From NCBI GenBank assembly GCA_905181785.1, contig CAJIZC010000004.1, positions 1-64,000 of the forward strand: DNA of 64,000 bases, in the 5' to 3' direction. The position numbers and the translations under genes were made by a program. Each line of letters starts with the position of its first letter. Positions within the stretch are counted from its first letter, which is position 1. Positions 42,135-51,105 of this stretch are shown here, in pieces. The stretch is from an uncultured Candidatus Poseidoniales archaeon. GTDB lineage: Archaea; Thermoplasmatota; Poseidoniia; Poseidoniales; Poseidoniaceae. The notes under the pieces are model-generated. The model worked only from the letters and a program-made list of their open reading frames with translations. It had not been told where the DNA came from and ran no database searches.

Positions 42135-42605
42135 ATGTCAGGCTCAATTTTGGGCCTCTTCGCTTCACCCCAAGGTGGTGTGCCAAAGCCATCTGTGCAA
42201 ACCTTGTCGGTTTTGAAAGACGGTTGCGTTGGCGATCGACAAAACGACCTCAAACACCACGGTGGTCCAATGCGTGCTGTATGCATCATGTCCACCGAAG
42301 TCATGCAAGCCCTGCAAGATGAAGGACACCCCATCGAAGGCGGTACAACGGGTGAGAATTTGTTAATCGAAGGCATACCTTGGACCTCGTATGAGGTTGG
42401 AGCCATTCTACGCTCAGAAGATGTGACGTTGAGAATCACGGGTGATGCGCCACCATGCAAAACCATTCGAGCCTCTTTTACCAATGGGACGTTCAAGGCA
42501 TTGGCGCACAAATTAACCCCGCAGAAAACACGATGGTACGCTGAAGTTCTTCAGGAAGGAACCCTTGAGTGCGGTGATTTAATCCAAATCGAAGCCATCA
42601 GTTGA
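42135..42605 (+). CDS. MOSC-domain protein
   Basis: A 156-residue protein of the MOSC (molybdenum cofactor sulfurase C-terminal) type. Features: SVLKDGCVGDRQNDLKHHGGP at the N-terminus (the strand that carries GD and HGG), FTTGENLLIEGI-like segment (GGTTGENLLIEG) and a conserved cysteine in GDAPPCKTI. MOSC proteins act in sulfur transfer or reduction of N-hydroxylated bases. The ATG at 42135 is used; a GTG at 42126 overlaps the EF-2 stop, suggesting coupling. It overlaps the convergent isomerase-prenyltransferase gene by eight bases. Confidence 0.85.
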   Translation: MSGSILGLFASPQGGVPKPSVQTLSVLKDGCVGDRQNDLKHHGGPMRAVCIMSTEVMQALQDEGHPIEGGTTGENLLIEGIPWTSYEVGAILRSEDVTLRITGDAPPCKTIRASFTNGTFKALAHKLTPQKTRWYAEVLQEGTLECGDLIQIEAIS

Positions 42606-44355
42606 TTCGCTGAAGTTGGAAATCCGTCAATTCTCGCAAAGCCCGCAACGCTGGTCCTTCTGCAAGTTGATTCAAGCAATCATGCGCTTTTGCATGGTAA
42701 GCTTCTGCTCGCTCCCGAGCGTGTTGAATCGAGCCAAGATCGCCGAGGGCCTTGAGGCCCGCATCGATTTCTTCTTGAGTAGCGTCGTCTCCTTTTCCAA
42801 GAACACGCAGTAAAGTGGCTTTTGTTTCGCTATCCGGTTGCCTTAGAGCGTGAATCACCATCAGTGTGCGCTTGCCTTGGGCAATGTCAGAGCCTGCAGG
42901 CTTTCCGAGGGTTTCCGAGTCAGACAGTGCATCGATCAAGTCGTCCATCAGTTGGAAGCACAGACCGACAGCAAGCCCCCAGTCGTGCATGCATTGAACC
43001 GTTTCTTCATCAGCACCGGAGAGGTAAGCACCGATTTCGGCGCAGGTGAGGAACATCACAGCGGTTTTCCCGGTGATCATTTCGATGTACTGATCTTCAG
43101 ACACACTTTCCATTGATTCGAAATCGATGTCCAGTTGTTGGCCTTCAGAAACACGGCGGACCATGCGGCCGATCCGCTTCACCAAGAATGGGAGCATCGA
43201 ATGTTCGATGCCTTCTGCAACCGCCATGGCTTCGAAAGCAATAGCCAGCATTGCGTCACCTGCATTGATTGCTGTTGGTAAATCATATTCGATGTGAACA
43301 GCGTTTCTGCCACGGCGAATGTCATCGTCGTCCATGATGTCATCGTGAACGAGCGTAAAGTTGTGAATGGTTTCAATGGCAGCGCCAACGTCCAACAAGC
43401 CGGCGTGGGTATCGCCAACCGCCTTTGCTACCATCCAAGGCATGCACGCTCGAAGGCGCTTTCCTCCACCTTCAACCAGATGCATCATGGCACCCGAAAG
43501 TCGTTCATGAGAAGTGTGTGTAAGGGCCCGCTCAATGCGACCTTCAACAAGTGGTTTGATTTCAGCAAGCGCTGTCAACAAATCCGCACCGACTGCACCC
43601 GGGAGCATATGACTGACGTCGCCCATATCGTGAATCTTATCATCGACAAGAGCCGATAGGGCCTCAGGGTTGCCAACGGCTTGCCACCAGTCTTCATTCA
43701 TCACACTTGCAGCAATGCAGCGGAACCAGGGCGCTATGACACCAGCTTCAGCGGATTCATCGATGAGCATGGCTTCAAGTTCAGCTTCAGAAACCCACAT
43801 GACTTCTGAAATTTCATTGGGGTTGGGAGCCAAATCCACATCGGCTTTGATGACGAGAATGTGATCGATTTCCCGTTCTGTCCATGTCTCATTCATGCGA
43901 GCGCAGTAGCGCATCTTGGTGATGAAGTGGAATTGATCCAAGGGCACCTGTTCTGGTGCGATGCCCAATTCTTGTTCAAGTTTCCTTACGGCAGCACGCT
44001 TGACTCCAATGGCCTCTTGTTCGTCCATTTCCATCTCGCTGTGAAGTGGGTGGGAGCAACATGAGTTGGCCCAAACATTTGGGAACGTCACTTTGTCAGA
44101 TGCACGGCGTTGCAGCAACAACCGGTTTTGGCTATCGAAAAGAAGGACGCTGAAGGCTCGGTGATAGGAGCCAACACCTCTATGTGCGGCAATTTTTGAA
44201 CCTGGGCCGGTGACGTTATCCCATTCATCGGTGAGGATGATCGCCTCTGCCATGAGCGCAGATTGAGTCGAATCAGCACCGAGCGAAGTGAGCAAGTTTT
44301 GCTCGTCTTCGCCTAGGGCTATGTTGGGCACATCAGAAATACCGTACCCTACCAT
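42598..44355 (-). CDS. Fused type I IPP isomerase - geranylgeranyl diphosphate synthase
   Basis: One 585-residue chain with two enzymes of isoprenoid lipid synthesis. Residues about 30-225 are a type I (Nudix-fold) isopentenyl diphosphate isomerase: HRAFSVLLF, the catalytic-cysteine motif NSCCSHP (97-103) and the TEREIDHIL glutamates (160-162). Residues about 250-585 are a trans-prenyltransferase: GGGKRLR (296-302), the first aspartate-rich motif HDDIMDDDD (337-345) and the second MDDLID (470-475). Phe333 lies five residues before the first motif, as in short-chain C20 synthases. The product is probably GGPP for archaeal ether lipids. The frame is continuous through the linker, so the fusion is real in this sequence. 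Type II isomerases are more common in archaea. Confidence 0.93.
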   Translation of the reverse strand: MVGYGISDVPNIALGEDEQNLLTSLGADSTQSALMAEAIILTDEWDNVTGPGSKIAAHRGVGSYHRAFSVLLFDSQNRLLLQRRASDKVTFPNVWANSCCSHPLHSEMEMDEQEAIGVKRAAVRKLEQELGIAPEQVPLDQFHFITKMRYCARMNETWTEREIDHILVIKADVDLAPNPNEISEVMWVSEAELEAMLIDESAEAGVIAPWFRCIAASVMNEDWWQAVGNPEALSALVDDKIHDMGDVSHMLPGAVGADLLTALAEIKPLVEGRIERALTHTSHERLSGAMMHLVEGGGKRLRACMPWMVAKAVGDTHAGLLDVGAAIETIHNFTLVHDDIMDDDDIRRGRNAVHIEYDLPTAINAGDAMLAIAFEAMAVAEGIEHSMLPFLVKRIGRMVRRVSEGQQLDIDFESMESVSEDQYIEMITGKTAVMFLTCAEIGAYLSGADEETVQCMHDWGLAVGLCFQLMDDLIDALSDSETLGKPAGSDIAQGKRTLMVIHALRQPDSETKATLLRVLGKGDDATQEEIDAGLKALGDLGSIQHARERAEAYHAKAHDCLNQLAEGPALRALRELTDFQLQRIN

Positions 44356-46489: not shown

Positions 46490-47662
46490 ATGGTCGATGT
46501 TGCCGTCATTGGAGCGGGGCAAACGAAGTATGGGAACCACCCATCGGGCTTGAAAGGAATGTGGGCCGAAGCCGCCGAGCAGGCCTTTGCTAGCGTGGAC
46601 CGTGACTTTGAACCACGCTGCGTCGATGAAGCATTCATTGGAAGTGTGGCGTTTGGTGGTGGCCAACTTGGCAACACTGCAGCGCTGCTCACAGAGCACT
46701 CAGGCATGGATGGCATTCCTGTACGACGCGTCGAAAACGCCTGTGCTTCCTCTGGCTTTGCGCTGAGGGATGCATGGATGGCGATCAAAAGTGGACAAGC
46801 AGATGTTGTCGTTGCTGGTGGCATTGAGAAAATGAATGATCTCTCCCCTGAACGCCGTAGGTTTTGGCTTGGCGTTTCTGGCGATACCGAATGGGAACGA
46901 TTAGCCGGACTGACCTTCCCAGGCACCTATGCCCTGATGGCCCGACGTCATTTCCATGAACACGGCTCAAACCATGATGACTTGGTCAACATCAGTGTCA
47001 AAAACCACATGCATGGTTTTGAAAATGAAATGGCTCACATTCGAAAAGAAGTTTCGTTCGAAAAAGCTCAAAGTGGATTCATGGTGGCCGACCCGTTGAC
47101 GCTGTACGACTGCTGTCCTACTTCCGACGGAGCATCAGCCGTGATCCTTGCAGCCGACCACGTTGTGCGCCAATTTACCGACGACCCGGTGTGGTTGCGC
47201 TCCTCGGGTGCTGGTTCCGACTTTTTGGCTCTGCATGACAGGCCAAGCATCACACAGGTGAAAGCGACACAACAAGCCTCCCAAGCAGCGTACAAAGCGG
47301 CAGGCATTACTGCGAAGGATGTAGATTTGGCTGAAGTCCATGATTGCTTTACCATCGCAGAACTGATGGCAACGGAAGACCTCGGCTTTGCTGCACGGGG
47401 CGAAGGTGGGATTTTTGCACGCAATCAACAGGGCGTTCGAAACCAAGGTGAAGTCTGCATCAACCCAAGTGGCGGCTTGAAATCAAAGGGCCATCCACTT
47501 GGCGCAACGGGCACAGGTCAAGCGGTTGAAGTGTTCAAGCAACTCAGAGGAAGCGTGGAAGCACCTCGCCAAATCCGCGACGCTGAAATCGGAATCACAC
47601 ACAACGTCGGCGGTTCAGGAGCCACTTGTGCAGTTCACGTGTTTGGGAGGGATCGAGCATGA
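46490..47662 (+). CDS. Archaeal thiolase (acetyl-CoA C-acetyltransferase type)
   Basis: A 390-residue thiolase of the archaeal/SCP2-like branch. Nucleophile Cys85 lies in VENACASSGFA; the second catalytic zone is EVHDCFTIAEL, the histidine is in GGLKSKGHPLGATG, and the C-terminus has the NVGGSGATCAVH segment. In many archaea this enzyme makes acetoacetyl-CoA for the mevalonate pathway in a complex with a DUF35 protein and HMG-CoA synthase. Here the DUF35-like gene overlaps its stop by four bases, but HMG-CoA synthase is not adjacent. A role in fatty-acid breakdown is the alternative. ATG 46490 gives the usual MVDVAVIGAG start. Confidence 0.9.
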   Translation: MVDVAVIGAGQTKYGNHPSGLKGMWAEAAEQAFASVDRDFEPRCVDEAFIGSVAFGGGQLGNTAALLTEHSGMDGIPVRRVENACASSGFALRDAWMAIKSGQADVVVAGGIEKMNDLSPERRRFWLGVSGDTEWERLAGLTFPGTYALMARRHFHEHGSNHDDLVNISVKNHMHGFENEMAHIRKEVSFEKAQSGFMVADPLTLYDCCPTSDGASAVILAADHVVRQFTDDPVWLRSSGAGSDFLALHDRPSITQVKATQQASQAAYKAAGITAKDVDLAEVHDCFTIAELMATEDLGFAARGEGGIFARNQQGVRNQGEVCINPSGGLKSKGHPLGATGTGQAVEVFKQLRGSVEAPRQIRDAEIGITHNVGGSGATCAVHVFGRDRA

Positions 47663-48507
47663 ATGAAGTGATCAATTGGAAGGGATACTTGGCCATGTTT
47701 GACGGTCAAGCCTTGATGATACAATCCCCGTTCATGCTGGATGATTCCATTGCGTTTGGTGCTGATTCTGATTACACAACCATGGCCATTGCGGGAATAA
47801 GCCTCATGGAAACCCGCGGCATCAACTTCACAACGGTTCGCAGCCTTCCGCTTGTCGACCCTCAAGCCGTCAAGAGCGCAACTGGTGTTGCTGTGTTGTA
47901 CGGAGATGATTCGGATGAAGAAGACTGTGAATGGAACTTGTTGGTCGGAGAAGAAGCCACTCTTGTGTTCACCAACGACCTTGAACGAAACCTTGGATTT
48001 CACGGACCATCAGACCTCGAAGTGCTCGACCCAACCTTTGCTGGAGACATTGCGGAGGCATGGTCATTGGAACTCAAAGCATCTCATGTTTCGCAAGGTG
48101 CTTATGTTTCCGAAGCGGCCTACCTTGAAGGCGCAAGTGCACGGCTCAACTTCATGGCTCAATCTCACACCACAGGATTGGTGTGGCCTCCTCGGCAACT
48201 CGATGCTGATGGAAAGCGAATTCCAGAACCTTCTGAATCGCTAACCGCAAGCGCAACAGTCGAGTCTTGGACCAAATTAAGCGCAGCTGGTGCGCCCTCT
48301 GAATTTGCTTTGCGAGCCCCAGTGCTTGGCGGCATCCAGACGGTGTTCGTTCGCTTCGACCAGGGCCCTTGCGGCGTGTTTTTGGTAGCGGATGATGAAC
48401 AGTACGAACCGAAGATCGGCGACAAAGTGACGTTTGCAGTCCGCCAAATTTATGCTCAAGAAGGCTTGATTCGCTACGGAATGAAAGCAATCCCTGTTCG
48501 TGACTGA
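47659..48507 (+). CDS. DUF35-like OB-fold partner of thiolase, zinc cysteines lost
   Basis: A 282-residue protein whose C-terminal 110 residues resemble the DUF35 OB-fold: a WPPR motif (176-179), an ESLTASATVESWTKL strand and the closing IGDKVTFAVRQIYAQEG block. DUF35 proteins bridge thiolase and HMG-CoA synthase. The zinc-ribbon cysteines that normally follow the PPR motif are absent (residues 180-192 have none), and an extra N-terminal 150 residues of unknown fold is present. The gene overlaps the thiolase stop (ATGA) with a GGGAGGG before the ATG, so the pair is made together. Family assignment rests on weak similarity plus context. Confidence 0.65.
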   Translation: MNEVINWKGYLAMFDGQALMIQSPFMLDDSIAFGADSDYTTMAIAGISLMETRGINFTTVRSLPLVDPQAVKSATGVAVLYGDDSDEEDCEWNLLVGEEATLVFTNDLERNLGFHGPSDLEVLDPTFAGDIAEAWSLELKASHVSQGAYVSEAAYLEGASARLNFMAQSHTTGLVWPPRQLDADGKRIPEPSESLTASATVESWTKLSAAGAPSEFALRAPVLGGIQTVFVRFDQGPCGVFLVADDEQYEPKIGDKVTFAVRQIYAQEGLIRYGMKAIPVRD

Positions 48508-48569
48508 ATCGGATTTGACCAACCATTCGAGCCAAAGTATTGATACAAAACCAACGGTGTGGGCTGGCT

Positions 48570-49586
48570 ATGGCAGGTCTTGGAGGCATCCGCAAAGGGC
48601 GCCGCGATGCGGTAGACAATTTACAATACACCGAAGGTGGCGATTGCCCTCGATGCGGTGGAGAAGCGCAGTCTTCAACCATGGCCGGTTACCTCATGTG
48701 CGTTGGATGCAACCATGAATGGGCGGATCCAAATCACGTTTCCACATCTGAACGGTTGCCACCCCCAACCTATCGACAAGACGCCGAAATGATTGAGGAA
48801 TTCAAGAAAGATGTAGCATCGGGAAGCCTTGCAGGCGTTCTTGGCGTCGATTCAAACCTTAGCGAAGAACAAGAAGCCTCTCTTGGCCGACTCGAAGACA
48901 AGTGGATGACCGGCATGCAAGGCCATTTCAACACGGCAACTGAAGACCGTAAACCATTGATGATCAGTTTCGATGACGAAGACAACATCGTATCGACTGA
49001 AGTTGCATCGCTCACCATTGTGGCCAATGGTTTTGATGGAGGAGAGGAGATTCGACTCGAATACCCAGGGAAAGGAACTGAATTTTACGAATTCAACGTC
49101 GCTGACCCGAATGGATGGCGAAAAGGTCCGACTGCAGAACACACCGCTCGGTCGATTTGCAACCTCATCAATAACAATTCAAAGTTAGTCTATGCTTCGC
49201 TGGACGGCGTACGGGTTTCATTTGAGTTGAGGGACCCGAAACTGAAGGCTGAATCCCTTGTGCTGTTTGTTGATGACCCTGGCGGCACAGATATTGTAGC
49301 TGAGAAAAACGGTGTTGTCCTCGACGCACGAGATGTTCAAGACTTCGAAGACTACCGAAGCGTTGTCGAACTTGTGCTGGAAGACGGAATCATCTCTCCA
49401 AGTGAGGATCAGCTGCTGTGGTCAATGCGCCAACAGCTCGGGATCGATGATGTGTACCACATCCAAATGGTGCTGGAAATTTGTGGTGAGAAAACCCTCA
49501 AAGAATGCACAGGATGTTCACAAATGGCTCCGCTTTATCCAGAGTACGCCGCTTGGTACTGCCAAACCTGCGAAGCCTGGTGTTGA
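48570..49586 (+). CDS. Protein with zinc ribbons at both ends, unknown
   Basis: From the ATG at 48570 this is 338 residues. An N-terminal ribbon (CPRC...CVGC near residue 26-47) and a C-terminal ribbon (CTGC...CQTC, ending WC) flank a middle region with beta-rich stretches (MISFDDEDNIVSTEVASLTIV; DGVRVSFELRDPKLKAESLVLFVDD) and a helical part resembling an EF-hand-free regulatory helix bundle (IISPSEDQLLWSMRQQLGIDD). No family recognised. A TTG at 48540 is a possible longer start. The next feature is a T-rich stretch and the actin-like gene. Confidence 0.62.
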   Translation: MAGLGGIRKGRRDAVDNLQYTEGGDCPRCGGEAQSSTMAGYLMCVGCNHEWADPNHVSTSERLPPPTYRQDAEMIEEFKKDVASGSLAGVLGVDSNLSEEQEASLGRLEDKWMTGMQGHFNTATEDRKPLMISFDDEDNIVSTEVASLTIVANGFDGGEEIRLEYPGKGTEFYEFNVADPNGWRKGPTAEHTARSICNLINNNSKLVYASLDGVRVSFELRDPKLKAESLVLFVDDPGGTDIVAEKNGVVLDARDVQDFEDYRSVVELVLEDGIISPSEDQLLWSMRQQLGIDDVYHIQMVLEICGEKTLKECTGCSQMAPLYPEYAAWYCQTCEAWC

Positions 49587-49641: not shown

Positions 49642-49707
49642 CTCTTCGAATAACGTCGATTAAGCCTCATAACCAAGCAGGTGAAATGGTCAACAGCGAG
49701 GTATGCT

Positions 49708-49715
49708 TCATAAAG
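49708..49715 (+). promoter_or_regulatory. TCATAAAG element, candidate TATA box for the actin-like gene
   Basis: TCATAAAG begins exactly 39 bases before the ATG at 49747, the same octamer at the same distance as before psmA (28026). Likely a core promoter with a short leader. Confidence 0.45.
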
Positions 49716-49746: not shown

Positions 49747-50772
49747 ATGGCAGAAGACGTATTATACATTGGAATTGATTTGGGAACCTTCCGCTCCGTG
49801 ATGGTTTCATCCGACAGTCACGAAGAAGAAGAGTTGACCGTGATTGGAACCCCAAAGGATCCAATTGCTCGCAATTTCCTCAAGCGAGACGTCTTGTTCG
49901 GCGAAGAAGCGCTCAAGAATCGACTTGCGCTCAACCTTTTCCGCCCGCTCGAACTTGGTGTCATCAAAGACACTCAAGAAGATCGAGATTTCATCGCTCA
50001 CTTCATCACTCACCTCATCGGTTTGTCAGACCCTGAAGAATACGACCGTGTGGTTGCTGTCATCGGCGCACCTGCTGAAGCATCCTATGTCGACAAGACC
50101 GCAATCTTTGACGCTGCTGCTGGCTCAGTCAACGCTGCTATGATCATCTCCGAACCGTTTGCAGTCGCTTACGCACTTGATATGATTGAGCACACATTGG
50201 TCATCGACATTGGCGCAGGAACTGCGGATCTTTGCCGAGTCTACGGAACCATCCCCGGACCTGAGGACCAAATGCACACCGGACACGCTGGCGACTTCAT
50301 CGACCGTGGCCTCATCAAGGAAATCCAATCCAAGTTCAACGGTGCGCAGATCACCAAGGACATGGCTCGCCGATGGAAGGAACAGTATTCCTTCGTTGGA
50401 ACCCACACCCCCGAAAACCCAATCATGGTCGACTTCTCAATTGAAGGCAAGGCCATGAACCTGGACATCACCGATTGTATGCAAGCTGCTTGCGAAGCAA
50501 TCGTCGAACCAATTGTCGACAACGTCAAGCAACTCATCGCCGGATCCAACCCTGAATACCACGACGAATTCCGTCGAAACATGGTTCTCGCTGGTGGCGG
50601 CTCAGGCATCAAGGGCCTCGGCGCAATGATTGAGCGACGACTCTCTGATATGGGCGATGTTAACGTTCACGTCGTCGACGACCCAGTCCGCCTCGGTGCT
50701 ATGGGTGGCCTTCGATTGGCAATGGAAGTCCCAGAAGAAATGTGGTCTTCCCTCACCCTCGCAACCCGCTGA
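49747..50772 (+). CDS. MamK/MreB-like bacterial-type actin
   Basis: A 341-residue ATPase of the actin superfamily. It shows phosphate-1 GIDLGTFRSVMV (9-20), connect-1 with the likely catalytic Glu136 in IISEPFAVAYA, phosphate-2 DIGAGTADLCRVYG (154-167), adenosine motif LAGGGSGIKG (281-290) and connect-2 RLGAMGGLRLA. The segment YGTIPGPEDQ followed by AGDFIDRGL resembles MamK more than crenactin. It is shorter than Hsp70 and has no substrate domain, so filament formation is plausible. Its role might be cell shape or internal positioning. It has its own promoter-like element and is followed after a hairpin by a small coiled-coil gene. No magnetosome genes are present. Confidence 0.88.
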   Translation: MAEDVLYIGIDLGTFRSVMVSSDSHEEEELTVIGTPKDPIARNFLKRDVLFGEEALKNRLALNLFRPLELGVIKDTQEDRDFIAHFITHLIGLSDPEEYDRVVAVIGAPAEASYVDKTAIFDAAAGSVNAAMIISEPFAVAYALDMIEHTLVIDIGAGTADLCRVYGTIPGPEDQMHTGHAGDFIDRGLIKEIQSKFNGAQITKDMARRWKEQYSFVGTHTPENPIMVDFSIEGKAMNLDITDCMQAACEAIVEPIVDNVKQLIAGSNPEYHDEFRRNMVLAGGGSGIKGLGAMIERRLSDMGDVNVHVVDDPVRLGAMGGLRLAMEVPEEMWSSLTLATR

Positions 50773-50777
50773 GGTCG

Positions 50778-50795
50778 CATAGCATCTTTGCTATG
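50778..50795. repeat. Perfect 7-bp hairpin between actin and coiled-coil genes
   Basis: CATAGCA and TGCTATG surround a TCTT loop just after the actin stop (50772) and before the ATG at 50824. No T-run follows. It may be a processing or attenuation signal that sets different levels of the two proteins; function is unknown. Confidence 0.4.
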
Positions 50796-50823
50796 AACCT
50801 GGTAAACAACATCAAAGGTAGGT

Positions 50824-51105
50824 ATGCATATGAAAGAACCAAAGGCTCTTCGTAAGGTAAAGAAATTGACTTCACGTTTGACGGAACGTATGGAAGAAAT
50901 ACGCGACCTCATGGACGACATGGAAATTGAATTTGAAATGCTGCAGAAGCAAATCATGGTCCTCGAGGGTCAATCTTCGAAGTCCACCGATTCACGGAAA
51001 CTTTCGAACGAGGAAAGTAAACAGGCTTCAATAGAAGAAGAAGACGATGACGAAGAACTGGATCTCGAAAACACATCTTCTGTGTTTGTCAAGCCTAAGT
51101 TTTGA
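50824..51105 (+). CDS. Small coiled-coil protein with acidic tail
   Basis: A 93-residue protein. Residues about 5-55 are a strong amphipathic coiled coil (LRKVKKLTSRLTERMEEIRDL then MEIEFEMLQKQIMVLEG) with basic start; the rest is Ser/Glu-rich and acidic (EEEDDDEELDLENTSS) and ends VFVKPKF. No family recognised. An ATG at 50830 is an alternative start. It lies 51 bases after the actin-like gene, same strand, so it may be a filament partner, like small coiled-coil proteins near bacterial actins; inference only. Confidence 0.62.
   Translation: MHMKEPKALRKVKKLTSRLTERMEEIRDLMDDMEIEFEMLQKQIMVLEGQSSKSTDSRKLSNEESKQASIEEEDDDEELDLENTSSVFVKPKF

Follow-up and report, generated by a model that had tools for sequence, protein, structure and literature searches.

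A MamK-type actin of Poseidoniales archaea, its conserved upstream neighbour and a second paralog

Genes and features at the actin locus

The window, the whole stretch of 64,000 nucleotides analysed here, belongs to f1, a family of the Poseidoniales (Marine Group II) whose relatives are named Poseidoniaceae. Families are denoted f1 and f2 and genera g1 to g22, and these genus codes are used throughout. The actin gene lies in the following order of features, with the evidence for each in brackets.

48570..49586, forward strand: 338-aa zinc-ribbon protein, kept upstream of actin A (synteny, alignment A3, Pfam, AF2)
49704..49715, forward strand: TATA-like element TGCTTCATAAAG, conserved (consensus TTCTTCATAAGG) and some 40 bases upstream of the actin start codon ATG
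49747..50772, forward strand: MamK-type actin ATPase, paralog A, 341 aa (intact ORF, PDB and NCBIfam matches)
50778..50796, no strand assigned: perfect hairpin CATAGC-ATCTTT-GCTATG between the actin and the coiled-coil gene (sequence)
50824..51105, forward strand: small coiled-coil protein, 93 aa, a lineage-specific neighbour of the actin (ORF, alignments A1 and A6, periodicity)

The nucleotide-binding motifs that the original prediction had reported are present in actin A: GIDLGT, DIGAGT and GGGS, for phosphate and adenosine, are all intact; and the segment YGTIPGPEDQ, which had been picked out as MamK-like, does align with KGTVPGPEDQ of MamK. Comparison with other genomes gave a dN/dS of 0.015-0.046, indicating strong purifying selection and therefore a functional gene.

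Relationship of actin A to known actin families

MamK is known from magnetosomes, magnetic organelles of bacteria, which this actin aligns. The top PDB match of actin A was MamK (5ljw; E=1e-74 with the single sequence and 1e-90 with a profile), followed by BeeR (1e-57) and then MreB (1e-20). Pairwise identity to paralog B was 49%; an archaeal protein of genome G309 reached 43%, MamK of strain AMB-1 38%, BeeR 31% and MreB 27-28%. PDB searches, NCBIfam and pairwise BLAST all gave MamK as the nearest named family, which bears out the earlier description of the actin as MamK-like. MamK of AMB-1 (PDB 5ljw, 5jyg) is also the nearest solved structure, colinear over the full length, and has the GT(I/V)PGPEDQ segment and the DIGAGT, EPF and GGGS motifs in common with actin A.

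For assignment to MamK the cut-off of NCBIfam model NF040964, 400 bits, was used. The window actin scored 358, another A copy 366 and a B copy 340 bits, all below the cut-off; as controls, MamK of AMB-1 reached 542 bits and the archaeal G309 protein passed with 435. Unlike MamK, actin A has an archaeal host and is one of two paralogs with their own neighbours, and Pfam and NCBIfam scans of the genes adjacent to A loci found no mam genes. Since the score is below the cut-off and magnetosome genes are absent from the neighbourhood, we conclude from sequence comparison that actin A is a MamK-superfamily actin and a relative of MamK, but not a certified MamK; with a score under this curated cut-off, any transfer of function from MamK is loose.

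The second-nearest family is BeeR, a three-stranded actin of Verrucomicrobiota (PDB 8r2n) marked by a disordered N-terminal extension of 30-50 aa (PMC11929497). BeeR resembles actin A in being a MamK relative in non-magnetotactic cells. However, actin A reached only 210 of the 530 bits needed for the BeeR model NF053558, and the protein, which begins MAEDVLYIGIDLG, lacks an extension of the BeeR type.

Other families were more distant. Salactin of Haloarchaea and Methanotecta is an archaeal actin which its authors place closest to MamK (PMC10746226); actin A passes the loose cut-off of Pfam Salactin (52 versus 27 bits), but scored 60 bits against 400 for the NCBIfam salactin model NF053533 and is far closer to MamK. 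Scores with the MreB models PRK13927 and TIGR00904 were 84 and 76 bits (cut-offs 293 and 366), with the Ta0583-type family PF21522 17 bits (gathering score 27.8), with Volactin PF25216 24 bits (gathering score 35) and with Pfam Actin only 29 bits. The best Pfam family was MreB_Mbl, there being no MamK model among the Pfam matches. Actin A is also not of the crenactin/arcade type, as by profile scores it lies on the MamK side and the small coiled-coil gene is linked to it in nine genomes only. The profile scores thus placed it within no well-studied archaeal actin family; together with the split from MreB in the tree they uphold the prediction of an actin distinct from crenactin, and the same holds for Ta0583, volactin, salactin and MreB.

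In that tree, A, B, MamK, BeeR and the G309 protein were set apart from MreB at 100/100. It took in one bacterial MamK and one BeeR, bacterial MamK being sampled by its PDB entries; with this single bacterial MamK, a constraint uniting A and B as one clade against MamK was not rejected (p-AU 0.077).

Distribution of the MamK-type actins

Copies of type A (73-100% identical to the window actin), type B (47-50%) or both were found in 145 of the 244 genomes of the order, usually two per genome, and in 15 of the 22 sampled genera. All 11 sampled genera of f1 had a match, and four of 11 in f2 (g15, g17, g19 and g22). The genome of the window, about 80% complete, yielded only type A. Because the genomes are incomplete MAGs, little weight can be given to any one absence; the pattern of absence is based on repetition at the genus level.

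Outside the Poseidoniales, only two of 390 Thermoplasmatota genomes gave a match, G309 and G439. The G439 match is an MreB-type gene in a genome with 8% contamination. The G309 match (L226:8628-9725, contig C140) is the MamK-family actin with 435 bits mentioned above, which has an extended N-terminus; this 5-Mb genome has 7% contamination, and the contig carries archaeal-looking genes such as those for TsaD and DUF531. A viral or plasmid origin of the actin was considered and rejected, as no relatives were found in viral contigs or PLSDB. In a single-contig relative (L228, G002:C1:1175441-1176456), the reading frame of the type A actin is broken in two at about residue 153, by a sequencing error or a real frameshift.

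The small coiled-coil gene and the hairpin

The 93-aa ORF downstream of actin A belongs to a family found in 77 of the 244 genomes of the order, and is therefore a real coding gene. A heptad helix at about residues 5-48, with a hydrophobic period of 3.5 residues in residues 8-45 (p=0.0005), is followed by an acidic variable linker and the C-terminal segment DLENTSSVFVKPKF, which is conserved in the family as DLENTSxVxVKPKF, the last residues being KF (alignments A1 and A6). The coiled-coil gene of the original prediction is thereby confirmed.

The gene adjoins actin A only in G000, G002, G012, G039, G093, G106, G108, G175 and G191; the actins of these nine genomes share about 95-100% identity with that of the window. 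In the other family-bearing genomes compared, it lies on another contig or far off, beside genes that differ by clade and are unrelated to actin. The family was detected in f1 genera g1, g2, g3, g5 and g7, but not in g4, g6 and g8-g11, though these keep the actin; in f2, a first profile gave weak partial matches and a wider profile none, though some f2 genera keep the actin. Synteny and distribution thus rule out the small protein as a conserved actin partner, and conservation of the pair fails beyond this one group of nine genomes. The original prediction had named such a failure as refuting it; this applies to the pair, though not to the actin.

A possible narrower role comes from comparison with arcadin-2, which works on crenactin and has a core, a non-conserved linker and a conserved C-terminal segment (PMC5173319). 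The 93-aa protein matches this anatomy in its conserved coil and C-terminus and its variable linker, so that it could still be a modulator. A true regulator of actin A of the arcadin-2 kind, with linkage lost in most lineages, is favoured by two observations: in the linked clade the gene is on the same strand as the actin with a gap of roughly 50 bases, and genomes with the coiled-coil family nearly all carry the actin. However, its non-detection in so many actin-keeping genera and the actin-unrelated neighbours in other clades make such a regulator unlikely; a mode of action in which the coil dimerises and the C-terminal peptide, on its flexible linker, docks on the actin has an equally small chance of being right. 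Crenactin, too, is an archaeal actin, but actin A differs from it in profile comparison, and the small gene is not kept beside actin A. We favour the reading that the 93-aa gene represents a Poseidoniaceae family which would have moved beside actin A in one small clade; its product may be a modulator or an unrelated coiled-coil protein. An AF2 model of a fused read-through chain of actin and 93-aa protein, made from too shallow an alignment, had a mean pLDDT of 44, too poor to reveal docking, and was informative only for one helix at residues 365-410.

The perfect hairpin between the two genes is present in the window as predicted, but is absent from the eight closest loci. A terminator or regulatory element was rejected on this lack of conservation; the hairpin is probably not functional, and is a chance or private feature.

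Upstream zinc-ribbon gene and promoter-like element

Downstream of actin A, many kinds of neighbour were found across loci. Upstream, the zinc-ribbon gene lay directly beside the actin and ran in the same direction in 86 of 87 testable loci (the exception being L129), even where the other flanks were rearranged. The gene starts at the ATG at 48570, not at the TTG at 48540. Its product has CxxC zinc ribbons at both ends, with cysteines invariant in alignment A3; its middle is beta-rich, and a helical stretch resembles TerB/ENT, although the Pfam Zn-ribbon, TerB and ENT matches were weak. The AF2 model is of moderate quality, with a mean pLDDT of 67; beyond about residue 141 most values exceed 70. 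Foldseek with this model returned flagellin FliC at E=8.6e-5 and a TM of about 0.2, along with phage tail proteins; these weak matches do not suffice to name the protein.

When the upstream regions of the compared loci are aligned, the TATA-like element falls at the same position in each. Since the window shows no clear enrichment of this word, the evidence for the element is its positional conservation. Paralog A would then probably be expressed from its own conserved promoter, and the zinc-ribbon gene and the actin need not form one operon. The zinc-ribbon protein may act together with actin A; alternatively, with a promoter-like element for the actin alone, the two genes may stay side by side simply because the genome rearranges slowly. 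Further upstream, at 47626-48507, is a gene for a 293-aa protein with no Pfam or NCBIfam match, which occupies this place in most f1 loci and is absent from the f2 loci read.

A second actin, paralog B

Most Poseidoniales with the actin have a second MamK-type copy, B. In all 11 loci read in detail, B lies in a block of three genes on the same strand, in the order subtilase, actin B and coiled-coil protein (L115:6305-12017, L118:6923-11669 and similar blocks in G082, G017 and others). The subtilase has a C-terminal hydrophobic stretch, read from its sequence and taken as a membrane anchor, and the coiled-coil protein is 385-426 aa long with long heptad-rich stretches. Most further B loci agree with this arrangement; L235 and L238 have an additional gene ahead of the coiled-coil gene. 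The coiled-coil protein has a weak match to the Crescentin rod (E=0.006).

Judged by gene order, B and its coiled-coil protein of about 400 aa are a better candidate for a conserved actin/coiled-coil module than the pair in the window. A coiled-coil gene as companion of a MamK-like actin is thus not borne out for the predicted pair, but does fit paralog B, outside the window. A MamK-type actin that acts with coiled-coil proteins has a precedent in Desulfovibrio magneticus, where MamK together with Mad28 and the coiled-coil proteins Mad20, Mad23, Mad25 and Mad26 places an organelle (PMC12748827); unlike the genes described here, however, this is a bacterial magnetosome system.

Proposed role of the two actins

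On the basis of homology, conservation, gene order and selection, we lean towards the view that actin A is an ATPase of the MamK superfamily that works in the cytoplasm and would polymerise into a scaffold or positioning track, that A and B are paralogs, and that the 93-aa protein is not a conserved partner. A and B would be two ancient Poseidoniales paralogs. MamK, whose filaments are double-stranded, and BeeR both form ATP-dependent filaments; A and B, as their homologues, should therefore also polymerise with ATP. An intracellular positioning or scaffolding filament is the most likely role, and the coiled-coil protein of about 400 aa would be the leading candidate for an adaptor dedicated to B filaments.

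We consider it quite unlikely that the actin is instead a cell-shape or membrane protein, an analogue of MreB in these wall-less archaea. The actin-bearing genera of f2 do tend to have larger genomes, and MreB_Mbl is the top Pfam family. Yet actin A is far nearer to MamK than to MreB, no mreC or mreD genes were seen beside it, and it has no N-terminal amphipathic or membrane helix, unlike MreB of E. coli; the last point makes a cytoplasmic scaffold or track likelier than a membrane-bound shape protein. Positioning of an archaellum or polar chemotaxis complex is very improbable: archaellin is carried by all f1 genera and by two of the four actin-bearing f2 genera, but within f2 the two occur independently of each other (g17 and g22 carry the actin but no detected archaellin, g14 and g21 the reverse). 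The archaellum is thus probably not strictly required, and a strict link was rejected.

Going beyond the positioning track, a two-actin MamK-type cytoskeleton that, in archaea not known to have magnetosomes, positions an as yet unrecognised structure inside the cell, B acting with its coiled-coil adaptor and the membrane-anchored subtilase and A with the zinc-ribbon protein, is a tentative and rather doubtful proposal. Poseidoniales are among the most abundant archaea of the surface ocean, and archaeal actin cytoskeletons already include those of crenactin, salactin, volactin and the Asgard actins. If true, a conserved two-paralog MamK-type system would add a further one and widen the known roles of this actin branch; searches of an open-access library, with the terms used, found no paper on it. 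Both filament formation and the partnership of B with its coiled-coil protein are open to direct test, as the proteins are ready to express and ordinary in size.

Elsewhere in the window, a 585-aa ORF at 42598-44355 reads like an isopentenyl-diphosphate isomerase fused to a prenyl-diphosphate synthase.
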